A stretch of DNA of 64,000 nucleotides from positions 558,001 to 622,000 of the forward strand of contig QNQO01000450.1 of the NCBI GenBank assembly GCA_003290165.1, written 5' to 3'. The translations under genes and the position numbers were made by a program. Positions 26,875-35,727 of the stretch are shown here, in pieces (the first letter of the stretch is position 1; each line of letters opens with the position of its first letter). Below the pieces are notes generated by a model that ran no database searches, had not been told where the DNA came from, and saw only the letters and a list, made by a program, of their open reading frames with translations. Source of the stretch: Berberis thunbergii (Eukaryota; Streptophyta; Magnoliopsida; Ranunculales; Berberidaceae).

Positions 26875-26899
26875 CACTACACCAAAAGGCCTTTTTAGC

Positions 26900-27175
26900 T
26901 ACACGTAGATGGCCACGGTTCTAAGCCGTTGCTTTATTGCCACAGCTAATAACCGTGGATATTGTGGTCAACGGCCAAAACCGTGGGTATAAGCGTGGTT
27001 TGAATTGCCAACGGTTTAAAACCGTGGCTATAATCACTACCCGATGGCCACGGTTTAAAACCGTGGGTTCATTTGCCACGGCAAAAACTGTGGCTATAAT
27101 GGCCAACGGACTAAAACCGTGGGTATAAGCGTGTTTTGAACTGCCAACGGTTTAAAAACGTGGCTAAATACGAGT
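26900..27175. repeat. Left subterminal palindromic repeats of Pack-CACTA 2
   Basis: About a dozen copies or half-copies of GGTTTAAAACCGTGG and CCACGGTTC-type units alternate in both orientations. Each pair can form a self-complementary site. The same units recur at 35543-35715. This is the likely transposase-binding region. Confidence 0.8.
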
Positions 27176-27179
27176 GTTT

Positions 27180-27680
27180 TGCACGTGCGTGGAGAAAGGA
27201 GCTTCGCGCTCTGGCAAAAAAATTTAGCGCTTTAAATTTGGCGATAAAGAGCAAGCTAAAGGGGCTCTCCTCACTCGAATCCTCTTCACCTCCTCTCCAA
27301 TTCTTCTCCGCCTTCTCCAAAGCCCTAATTCCTCTCTTCGATTTCCAGCAACGAACTTCCTTCGCCGAGCGGATCGTTAGCTTTCTTCTTCTTCTTCTAT
27401 TATTCTTCTTCAAGGTGTGGTTTACTCACAAAAAATGGGGTATCGATCTCACCGACCCATCTTCTCTTTCGATTCGAGACATCCCAGATCCTCTCGCTAC
27501 ACTTGTGCGTCCCAACATCAGGTTCTTATCCATCTTTCTTTTTCTTTTTCTGAATCCCCAATGAATTTATGTAGAAACTGATAAGTTTTGGTTGTATTTT
27601 CGATTTGGGGTTTTATATTCAAGGACGATTCCACACTCAGTAGGCAGAAGAAGGATGCAAAAGCCAATTGGAAGTCTCAG
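27180..27680 (+). promoter_or_regulatory. Leader-like segment inside Pack-CACTA 2
   Basis: Just inside the subterminal repeats lies a C/T-rich stretch (27265-27410) followed by CAAGGTGTGG. An ATG at 27434 then opens a frame of about 29 codons (GYRSHRPIFSFDSRHPRSSR), ending near a CAGG site. Another exon-like block, DDSTLSRQKKDAKANWKSQ, ends at a GTATGT donor at 27680. The arrangement copies the leader of Pack-CACTA 1. The promoter role is inferred. Confidence 0.4.
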
Positions 27681-28176
27681 GTATGTATGTTTCAAATTTG
27701 GGTTTGTTTTGTCATGTTGGTTTAATTTTCTTTCAATGAGGTGGTGAGACTTTTCTTCTCCCAGTAAATCAATCAGTCCCACAGCCTCTTAGAGTTTTGC
27801 TTTCTTTTCTGAAGTGACTTTGAAGTATTTTGGAAGCTATGGCTCAAAGGGTATGTGTTTGTTGGTCTTCTAGGGGTCGATGGCTCGTGAACAGAGCCCT
27901 TGAATCCTATTTTTCCAGCAAGTAAGTATGTTAAGGTTTCCTTCTTGATTTGTAATTTTATCAGAAATTTGAGTTTTTTTCAACAATTTTCTTTTTCCCC
28001 ATTTTGATTTTCTTTCAAAAATCTGTGTCACCTAACACTATTTATCCTTCCAATTTATTTTAGACTGATTGTAGATTGGGCATTATTGTGTATTTCTACT
28101 TAAAATCTCATCTTTCTTCGCACATTTTCTTGTAGATTCGGGCATTCCTTGACAATGTTCATATTTGTATTCTCAG
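27681..28176. other. Intron-like sequence before the NEK fragment
   Basis: T-rich DNA with no recognised exon, consistent with an intron. Confidence 0.4.
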
Positions 28177-28812
28177 GGCTGCTATGTATGCATCATTATA
28201 GGCTATTGTGAGGATGGTGACATGTAAGTTGATTTTGTTGCTTAATTGAAGTGTTTGAGGAAAGGTGGACCAATCCAATTGGGTGTGATGCTTTCATTGT
28301 GGCTTATTTGTTTGGAAACCTTTGTTGTGCCACATCCTTTCTTTGTACAGGTCAGAAGCTATAAAGAAAGCCAATGGTGTTCATTTCCCTTAAGAGGTAT
28401 TCATTTCTATTAAACAATGCATATTGTGTTTTAAACTTGAATTGTTGCCTTCATTATCATTTATATTTAATCAATTATTTGAATTATATATAGAAACTTT
28501 GCAAATGGCTTGTTCAACTCCTCATGGCACTTGATTAATTACTTGCACATGAATCATATTCTTCATCGTGATGTCAAGGTCAGTGATTTTCCTCTTTGTT
28601 AGGGTATTTGTTATATGTTATCTAGATATACGTTTGGGTAAGTGATTCATGTTTTCCCTGGTTTTTTGTATGAAAAAGATAATATTAACAAAACTTCCTA
28701 TATGTAGTGGTTACTGTTTTAAATACTTCCTATTGTAGCTACTTAAGTTTATCTTTTAACTGCAGGTGATTTTGGACATGCTAAACTGTTGACTTCTGAT
28801 GACCTTGCTTAA
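28177..28812 (+). pseudogene. Captured fragment of a plant NEK (NIMA-related) protein kinase
   Basis: Four exon-like blocks with GT-AG borders match plant NEK kinases: 28177-28223 (CYVCIIIGYCEDGDM); 28351-28398 (SEAIKKANGVHFP, then TAA); 28494-28578 (KLCKWLVQLLMALD, then a frame slip, then the coding text of LHMNHILHRDVK with the catalytic-loop HRD); and 28766-28812 (GDFGHAKLLTSDDLA, with the DFG motif, then TAA). The N-lobe, the exon between HRDVK and DFG, and the C-lobe are missing. Two stops and one frameshift make it non-coding as a kinase. Confidence 0.8.
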
Positions 28813-33179: not shown

Positions 33180-34425
33180 ATTCCTCAGTTTGTTCTTGAA
33201 ACTGGAGAATCAGAGACTCCAGAGAGACGCAAGAAGTTGGTTGCTTGCACTCAGCCACGTCGAGTGGCTGCAATGTTTGTTTCCCATCAAGTTGCTGAAG
33301 AGATGGATGTAACTATTAGTGAAGAAGTTGGTTATAGCATCCGTTTTGAAGATCGCAGCAGTGCTAAGACGGTTCTCAAGTAAGATATTTCTCCTTTCTA
33401 TTAACTTCATTTCCCCCTCAACTTATTCTTTCTTCTGAAATATTCGTTGCTTCCTTTGCTGCCTATGTTTATACTTATTCTGTATGTGATATGTGTGGCA
33501 GGTATTTAACTGATGGTATGCTTTTAAGAGAAACTATGAATGATCCACTCTTGGAACAATATAAGGTTATAATTCTGGATGAAGCTCATGAAAGGACTTT
33601 AGCAACGGATGTTTTGTTTGGAATTTTAAAGGAAGTATTAAGGAACATGCCAAATTTGAAACTGGTGGTTATGAGTGCCACACTTGAGGCTGAGAAGTTC
33701 CAGGGTTATTTTAGTGGTGCCCCGCTAATGAAAGTTCCAGGAAGGCTTTTCCCAGTGGAAATTTTCTATACTCAGGAGCCCGAGAGGGATTACCTAGAAG
33801 CTGTTATTCGAACAGTTGTCCAGATACACATGTGTGAACCTGCAGGTGACATACTTGTTTTCCTTACAGGAGAGGAAGAGATTGAAGACGCGTGTAAAAA
33901 AAATTGCAAAAGAGGTAGGGAACTTGCTTTTAGGGCACCGCAACCTTCATGAAAGCATGATTTTTTTGGGCATGTGTTGTTATATGTTACTGTTATATAT
34001 TTTTTTTTGAGTGCATGGCCTTAGAAGGAAATTTGCCTAGTCCTGTCTCTGTGACAGTTCTTGTGCATCTACATGTGCATGCTTGTAGAGTTTATTTTAG
34101 GCAATTAGGTTATCATCAGCAGTAACTTGTCTAGGTCCCATGCCACTGGTTGGAGTGTACCGTAGGAACTTTTGAGTAAAGTGCTAGTGCATTTAGTTGC
34201 AGTTTCTCAGTATTCTCTCATGAAGCAAATGGTGTCATCTCGCTTCTATGTCTGCTGACCACCCTGGGCCTCCTCTGTGATAACCATTTCTTTCTTTAGT
34301 ACCCAATTGCTTTGTCTGGCCTAGGGAGGCTCAAAAAGCTGCGGATGAAGCTAAAGCTCAGTTCGACCACATCGATGGGGATCACTTGACGCTTTTAAAT
34401 GTATATCACGCGTACAAGCAAAACA
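33180..34425 (+). pseudogene. PRP43: Captured fragment of a PRP43-type DEAH-box RNA helicase (DEAH2/DEAH3)
   Basis: 33180-33379 begins [10 protein letters not shown] and holds motif Ia (TQPRRVAA). After a GT-AG intron, 33502-33914 holds [10 protein letters not shown], motif II (IILDEAHER), motif III ([14 protein letters not shown]), [20 protein letters not shown] and motif IV-like [14 protein letters not shown], an uninterrupted 137-codon exon. A separate block at 34323-34425 gives [20 protein letters not shown] then [13 protein letters not shown] from the C-terminal auxiliary region. The P-loop motif I (GSGKTTQ) and the exons between the two RecA-like domains are missing. PRP43 releases spliced introns and acts in ribosome assembly. 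This copy cannot hydrolyse ATP. Confidence 0.85.
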
Positions 34426-34944
34426 GTAAGTCCCAAAATCTGCTATTGTTTACTTCTTCTTTTTTTGAGTCTGCATGGTCTAGTGTTCTTCGTTGAAATT
34501 GTTCTTCGTCTGATGGACTTTGTTCCACAGGTGTTCGATTGCCGTCTGCATGGTTGTTCTCAAGGCCTAATTACTTCAGTAAGCTGCAGTTGTTATTCTG
34601 TTGTTTATCGACTTGAAGTGCTCTGATTCTTTATCATGTAATCAAGTTCTTCTCTTACGGAGTGAAAAGCAATCAAGCTAGTGTGGACTTGAAGAGAACA
34701 AGGACCCGTGTAGTGATCAATGCTATCTCCGGGTAACTTTTGTCATGTCTAAGTTTAAAATGCATACTTCCATGTTATCACTGTTGAAAATGAAGCTTAA
34801 TATCAACAAAATGGTTATGATATACTCTTCAGCATGTTATAACACCTCCAATTCTAGAGGGTACATCACAAGGAAGGCTAACAAGTAATTTAAGAAGTAG
34901 TTTTTATGTGTCAGTGAACTCCATTATGGTTATGGTTTCCGCAG
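34426..34944 (+). other. Segment with one unassigned exon-like block
   Basis: At 34650-34733 the frame FFSYGVKSNQASVDLKRTRT continuing RVVINAISG ends at a GTAACT donor. It is likely a captured exon from another gene, but the parent was not recognised. The remainder is AT-rich. Confidence 0.35.
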
Positions 34945-35316
34945 TCTTCACAAGCACACACATACACACTAATATGCCTGACATAGTGACAATGGCAAAG
35001 GTAATTCATACGACTTTCCATGCAGTTTTTTTAAGAGAGTACCATAAGTTTATCTTATTGTAGCATCTTTGTTAAATCTTTCTACGGACATTTTGTGTTG
35101 TAAATGTTACTTTCAGTCTGCTGATATGTTTGCTGCTGTGATATGTTCAGGGTATTGGAAATGACATTCCACTTGGTGCTGTTGTTACAACCCCTGAGAT
35201 TGCACAGGTCTTGACGCATCGTAGTTACTTCAACACCTTTGGTGAAAATCCCGTATGTACAGCTGTTGGCCATGCAGTTCTGAAAGTAATTGAGAAAAGA
35301 AAAGCTCCAGGAGGAT
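34945..35316 (+). pseudogene. Captured fragment of mitochondrial alanine-glyoxylate aminotransferase 2-type enzyme
   Basis: 34945-35000 ends MPDIVTMAK, which includes the lysine that forms the Schiff base in this class III aminotransferase family. 35151-35316 reads [20 protein letters not shown] then [13 protein letters not shown] and [13 protein letters not shown] ends are present. Family copies have GNG(I/Y)[12 protein letters not shown] and NTFGGNP, so the identification is clear. Only two exons of about a dozen are present. A frame slip occurs at GAGAAAAGAAAAG near 35300. Confidence 0.8.
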
Positions 35317-35542
35317 GCAATGGACTACACAATGTTGAATTGTAAATGCTGTTGTTTTTGCTGTAATGAATTGTGAATGATCTAAATTTCTGCTGTAATG
35401 AATTGTAAATGTTGCTGCTGTAATGTATTGCTTGAAAACAATTGCTGGAATTTGCTGATCAGAGGTTGTAAATTTTGTTTTTAAATTTAATTAAAAGTCA
35501 TTAAATTTTATTTACTTGATGCACGTGCTGAATTATACTTAC

Positions 35543-35715
35543 CTATAACCGTGGCTAAATCATCAACCATCCTCGAGCATAAAACCGTTGCTAATTTGTT
35601 TTGCCACAGTTTGTAGTCGTTAATGGGGATTTAGCGACGCCTCTCCAGCCCACGGCTCTAAGCCGTGACAATGGGTTACCCCCACGGTTCAAAACCGTTG
35701 CTGATGGGTATTTTT
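35543..35715. repeat. Right subterminal palindromic repeats of Pack-CACTA 2
   Basis: Units ATAACCGTGGCTAAATC, CCCACGGCTCTAAGCCGTG and CCACGGTTCAAAACCGTTGC mirror the left array and end against the terminus TTTTTGGTGTAGTG. Confidence 0.8.
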
Positions 35716-35727
35716 GGTGTAGTGTAT

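Follow-up and report, generated by a model that had tools for sequence, protein, structure and literature searches.

A Pack-CACTA element of Berberis thunbergii with pieces of six host genes in one direction

The stretch described here (the window) comprises 64,000 nucleotides of Berberis thunbergii, G000:C450:558001-622000, and own-genome searches were run on the 2.24 Gb assembly, which consists of 11,732 contigs. At positions 26875-35724 the window contains a non-autonomous CACTA element of 8850 bp with recognisable pieces of six host genes, all on the forward strand. The features are listed below in window coordinates (TIR, terminal inverted repeat; TSD, target-site duplication).

Structure and content of the element

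26872-26874, no strand: left TSD, TAT; C7933 and C3334 have the same left flank next to the TIR
26875-26887, +: left TIR, CACTACACCAAAA
26908-27166, no strand: left subterminal array, palindromic, with CCACGGTT..AACCGTGG motifs
27200-28100, +: 5' block of unknown parentage, CT-rich, with an ATG at 27435 and short exon-like stretches
28177-28818, +: NEK-type kinase fragment, best PDB match NEK1 (6.3e-13); exons 28177-28223, 28351-28396 (nonsense), 28494-28578 (frame disrupted), 28625-28637 (remnant) and 28766-28818
29523-29821, +: malic enzyme fragment; exons 29523-29651 and 29761-29821; query match 4.9e-18, Pfam malic 7e-22
30104-31856, +: ALDH3 fragment, introns kept; exons 30252-30320, 30438-30534, 30776-30981, 31565-31680 and 31784-31855
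30107-30111, no strand: join of the left (X) and right (Y) sub-families, common bases TGTTG, a 5-bp microhomology
31857-32472, +: block whose parentage is unknown; one exon-like stretch, 32344-32427
32492-32596, +: TRM7/FTSJ1-type methyltransferase exon, match 7.7e-6, one nonsense codon
33057-34487, +: PRP43/DEAH2 helicase fragment; exons 33180-33379, 33502-33922 (frameshift) and 34283-34425
34945-35304, +: class-III aminotransferase fragment; exons 34945-35000 and 35151-35304; best match ethanolamine-phosphate phospho-lyase (6.5e-13)
35544-35702, no strand: right subterminal array
35712-35724, -: right TIR
35725-35727, no strand: right TSD, TAT

The perfect 13-bp ends, TAT duplication and subterminal arrays named in the original prediction were all borne out by repeat and motif searches. 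CACTACACCAAAA at 26875-26887 is found inverted at 35712-35724 with identity over 13 bp, and the exact 13-bp end has no copies in the 64-kb window beyond these two. The 3-bp TSD on either side of the element is a feature of the CACTA superfamily, as are direct and inverted short repeats in the subterminal arrays: 34 of the 63 window matches to the motifs (type CCACGG/AACCGT) sit at 26913-27152 and 35547-35700, with four more scattered elsewhere inside the element. Helitrons have neither TIRs nor TSDs; both are present here. A six-frame Pfam scan of the element recovered Aldedh, DEAD, malic and Aminotran_3 on the plus strand, some of them below the curated cut-off, no family on the minus strand, and no transposase domain, as in non-autonomous CACTA members.

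The gene pieces were identified by spliced or exon-wise queries with matches in PDB and Pfam, and all six that had been predicted (NEK, malic enzyme, ALDH3, TRM7, PRP43-type helicase and aminotransferase) were recognised on the plus strand. Exon edges are mostly AG/GT, introns are retained, and the exon order inside the pieces is native where it can be checked (ALDH3 and PRP43). The names class-III aminotransferase and malic enzyme hold; the narrower labels are plausible ones between which the fragments do not decide, the malic enzyme piece being likely of NAD rather than NADP type and the aminotransferase piece presumably of AGT2 type. Among the three or four exon-like blocks of unknown parentage predicted earlier, 32037-32119 was rejected as an exon, the acceptor AG being missing in five of five relatives checked. 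Two short readings of the 5' block 27200-28100 had no Pfam match. For ALDH3, PRP43 and an adjacent gamma-glutamyltransferase gene, sequences of Macleaya, Aquilegia, Coptis, Stephania and Ranunculus are among the best matches, which points to a host in the Ranunculales.

With host gene sequence between CACTA ends and related copies at other genomic sites, the element is a Pack-CACTA, a kind already known. Its ALDH3 and PRP43 pieces align with donor genes through introns; the NEK, malic enzyme, TRM7 and aminotransferase pieces are recognised by protein family only. Among the family loci read, none holds the complete window form at another site.

Donor genes, relatives and the joining of two halves

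Searches for parent loci located donors in the same genome for two pieces, ALDH3 and PRP43. The ALDH3 donor is a full gene at G000:C281 (related copies at C7157 and C1395), which matches window 30104-31856 with 96.9 and 97.3% identity over two blocks, introns included, the differences affecting 11 of 560 exon sites and 33 of 1186 intron sites. The piece lacks 205 bp of donor intron, with TTAT at both edges of the deletion. PRP43 genes with the long exon lie at C71, C5594, C249 and C1435; C71, the closer of the two genes read, matches with 96.6 and 94.9%, and C249 was set aside as donor with 90.0 and 83.9%. As predicted, capture was from genomic DNA, since both donor genes match through their introns. 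An internal stretch of 787 bp of the C71 gene is missing from the PRP43 piece, and this deletion is common to eight of eight relatives tested; PRP43 was thus captured before these copies spread. Most loci differ by about 3-5% in the core region, where the tree is star-like with weak inner branches, and capture and amplification seem to have been close in time.

Besides the full genes, ALDH3 exon pieces are found at many other places, and some of these, such as the one on C97 (L032), hold exons that the window element lacks.

The search of the genome with the whole element returned at least 88 matches on at least 33 contigs, the window's own included (34 candidates scored), with many near-identical pairs; matches in blocks longer than 1 kb are 92-98% identical. 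The NEK piece occurs at 40 or more places in the genome, window included, and the TRM7 piece likewise has at least 40 scored candidates. Further copies with subsets of the fragments, which the original prediction had proposed to look for, were found in two forms. Left-type loci (C1163, C9920, C11017 and C5907) contain element positions 1-3241, the 5' block 27200-28100 within this common stretch, and then run into other sequence. Right-type loci have other sequence to their left and start at position 3230 (C90, C8344, C556, C7875 and C435), at 4811 (C1011) or at 5574-5861 (C53, C5381, C125, C6106, C6486, C173 and C610). The four left-type loci and the five starting at 3230 each include near-identical pairs. 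The relatives on C1163 (L017 and L029, 8698 bp) and C53 (L030 and L020, 9108 bp) have exact 13-bp ends on both sides; for C8344 and C556 no element end was recognised in the stretch read.

The left 3.2 kb and the right 5.6 kb of the window element thus occur in separate sub-families, X and Y. The boundary reads ..aaactaTGTTGttttc in the left type, ..tctctgTGTTGgtttggg in the right type and aaactaTGTTGgtttggg in the window, and the simplest reading of these sequences is a joining of two elements through 5 bp of microhomology. The donor match points the same way: in Y-type C8344 it begins at position 2200 of the ALDH3 donor, and in the window only at 2274, so that more of the captured sequence survives in the right type. 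The prediction of one CACTA element with six donors therefore stands as to a real element and its six donors, and falls as to their collection by one element. A second join lies at 32478-32484, upstream of the TRM7 exon, which has TATTTCA in common with both sides of an extra segment of 1.8 kb in C29 (L035).

The X/Y join is found letter for letter at C19 (L036, G000:C19:505600-507600), where the window's left flank is absent in the 2 kb read; C4993, near-identical to C19, also matches across the join in the search results. To the left of the join, sequence at C19 differs from the window and includes a 164-bp piece found in C1163 on the far side of the left-type boundary, a further reshuffle of the same modules. 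Either the join has spread, or the joined form was the source for C19. The opposite order of events, in which the joined X+Y form came first and later rearrangements gave X-type and Y-type relatives that each lost one half, gains from the presence of the join at two loci (the window site, on three contigs, and C19) and from the star-like core tree, which leaves the order of events undecided. Since Y-type C8344 retains ALDH3 donor sequence that the joined form lacks, Y cannot simply derive from the joined form, an ancestral X+Y is hard to hold for the right half, and we regard this order as improbable.

Remnants of inner CACTA ends between the blocks were not recognised in terminal-repeat and motif searches of the element. 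GAAAGGAGCTTCG at 30124-30136, a repeat of 27194-27206, was considered as the fossil left end of a second CACTA element at the join and rejected because this stretch is intron of the ALDH3 donor. Five terminal-repeat matches with 2-3 mismatches inside the element, considered as inner terminal repeats, are about as dense as such matches are elsewhere in the window. The whole window has 40 of them, true ends counted, against a shuffle mean of 28, and 2 of 100 shuffles reach 40.

At 51912-52205 the window contains a candidate 294-bp non-autonomous CACTA element, bounded by inverted CACTACACCAAAT ends and flanked on either side by TAT.

The composite structure could also have arisen from an assembly or haplotype-merging artefact, for which the genome offers some occasion with its 11,732 contigs and near-identical pairs. 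Three contigs hold the same insertion. The left flank of the window adjoins the same left end in C7933 (97% over 1865 bp), which ends inside the element, and in C3334 (94%); C3334 also extends into the right flank (90%), a deletion there having brought element position 8366 next to flank sequence from about window 36200. The same insertion in the same flank on two other contigs, C3334 with a deletion and insert of its own, excludes an assembly error, the element ends and TSD are intact, and the X/Y join recurs at C19; an artefact is accordingly extremely improbable.

The following course of events would account for the joined form. Host-gene pieces, introns included, may have entered ancestral elements as genomic DNA by microhomology-tolerant templated repair, to which the junctions point, and, as the lack of a transposase domain suggests, the element would have been moved in trans by a CACTA transposase whose gene lies elsewhere. 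Comparison of the loci shows that an X left half (NEK and malic enzyme) was joined to a Y right half (ALDH3, TRM7, PRP43 and aminotransferase), with internal deletions. Three contigs hold the joined form at this site, and the join recurs at a further locus, C19. The shared direction of the pieces would reflect a family-wide bias from capture or from loss of reversed pieces, not a coding or splicing function that was kept.

Direction of the captured pieces

All six donors of the window element are on the plus strand (binomial p = 0.031), and the predicted chance of about 1 in 32 was arithmetically right. Across the scanned stretches of the family, the direction is the same for 11 of the 12 donors that were recognised (p = 0.006). 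Both strands were scanned in L020 1-7875, L017 3179-9899, L029 1-1975, L030 5268-6500, L010 1-2893 and L035; L013 7990-9901 was scanned on one strand only. Further plus-strand donors in the relatives are cellulose synthase, actin, a second NEK piece (by eye, Pfam 2e-4), spermidine synthase and a kinase which we presume to be PTI1-like. The one exception, part of a TPR gene in C29 (L035), lies on the minus strand (Pfam 1.5e-4, under the cut-off; PDB 2.6e-6). The tally of directions leans mainly on Pfam recognition, with blocks of unknown parentage uncounted and each donor counted once by eye. Weak minus-strand Pfam matches to TFIIA (0.004) and DUF3391 (0.059) in C1163 and to DUF5530 (0.07) in C8344, none of which reaches its curated cut-off, were set aside; the stretch matching TFIIA is a simple repeat. 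The one-direction pattern is a bias, not a law.

Kept coding capacity predicts most variation at third codon positions. Over 12 exons with 4-10 rows each, the variable sites at codon positions 1, 2 and 3 number 92, 74 and 57, with an excess at position 1 (chi-square p = 0.016). Counts of broken splice dinucleotides gave 13 in 166, where 9.8 are expected from the flanks, and five of the 13 belong to one doubtful exon edge. Seven loci had been dropped before these counts: L011, L015, L018, L021, L025 and L027, which are near-identical to others, and L012, the window's own site. L022 and L023 are overlapping stretches of one contig and both stand in some codon-count rows, which leaves the variable-site counts unaffected; stop counts taken from trimmed matches were left aside. 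Taken together, the codon-position and splice-site counts do not support the idea that a readable or spliceable transcript has recently been under selection.

The original prediction had offered selection for a readable transcript or a directional capture mechanism. In strict form, either would mean that only fragments readable from the left end are taken up or survive. The bias which it saw stands, with 11 of 12 donors, and is joined by the soybean element Tgm-Express1, whose five fragments are spliced in one direction as exons within a single transcript (PMC1947982). The selection is unsupported by codon positions and splice sites; the window copy has nonsense and frameshift changes, a virtual splice of 20 exon stretches gives a longest open run of 232 of 758 codons, and one relative, C29, carries a reversed piece. 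In the grapevine element Cactavine-5 the transposase and a captured PPR piece face opposite ways (PMC2528002), which counts against a general sense rule. Directional capture or sense-transcript selection in this strict form is possible but somewhat doubtful. We hold equally tentatively that capture or retention favours fragments in the sense of the left end, reversed pieces being rare, without a kept coding or splicing function; the bias may have been set at capture or may come from loss of reversed pieces. A limited literature search found no strand count for CACTA captures; absence of such counts is not claimed.

As a whole, the element is very probably a non-autonomous Pack-CACTA whose X and Y halves were joined by microhomology, within a family that shares the strand bias. 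A number of observations weigh against this. The family was read in part, in 20 stretches and a few later ones, and donors of the NEK, malic enzyme, TRM7 and aminotransferase pieces were not found among the listed own-genome DNA matches, which are family copies. Single microhomologies of 4-7 bp may be due to chance, and no empty site is shown. The triplets flanking the relatives on C1163 (ACC/GCA) and C53 (TTG/CTA) are unlike, as if their ends had been exchanged between insertions.

Related systems and other features of the window

Little is known of how CACTA elements take up host genes, and here donors, capture edges, internal deletions and an element-element join can be read in one genome. 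A readable assembly path and a testable strand bias are what is new. Such a bias would separate the mechanism of capture from later selection and, if general, would make the strand a signature of that mechanism or of silencing by antisense RNA. Helitrons differ from the Berberis element in lacking TIRs and TSDs.

Sequential capture of gene pieces is described for maize Helitrons (PMC3288121), which makes them a related case. Tgm-Express1, in the soybean wp allele, is a 5.7-kb element of the CACTA superfamily; its five fragments come from unrelated host genes, contain introns as well as exons, and are spliced as exons of the host transcript (PMC1947982); the Berberis element has six donors and a sub-family join visible in its relatives. 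Pack-TYPE elements are described as widespread non-autonomous TIR elements with DNA from several loci, for which fusion of neighbouring elements is one model (PMC8903248). Fusion may leave mutated or deleted inner ends; none were found between the blocks here, and the joins show microhomology instead. The many donors, predicted to be unusual, are only mildly so, given the five of Tgm-Express1 and the maize Pack-CACTAs, which hold the most distinct loci among the Pack-TYPE groups (PMC8903248). According to a paper of 2021 that cites Tpn1, fragments of host genes are typical contents of the middle part of non-autonomous CACTA elements (PMC8195511), and the Tpn1 family of Ipomoea nil, by its description there, has common subterminal regions with differing host gene pieces, as has the family described here. 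On wheat chromosome 3B, 140 CACTA capture events are reported and some captured genes are under purifying selection (PMC4290129), of which the Berberis element gives no sign.

Outside the element the window contains a direct duplication of about 3.3 kb (13238-16497 and 16880-20201) with 83% identity and strand skew. On the plus strand follow a gamma-glutamyltranspeptidase-like gene at 47899-50405, whose exons match Aquilegia and Stephania relatives, and reading frames at 60593-63241 that are retrotransposon gag-like and reverse-transcriptase-like, presumably of Ty3 type as judged by eye. Frames at about 4389-8052, also on the plus strand, resemble parts of what we take to be a large PRT6-type E3 ubiquitin ligase.

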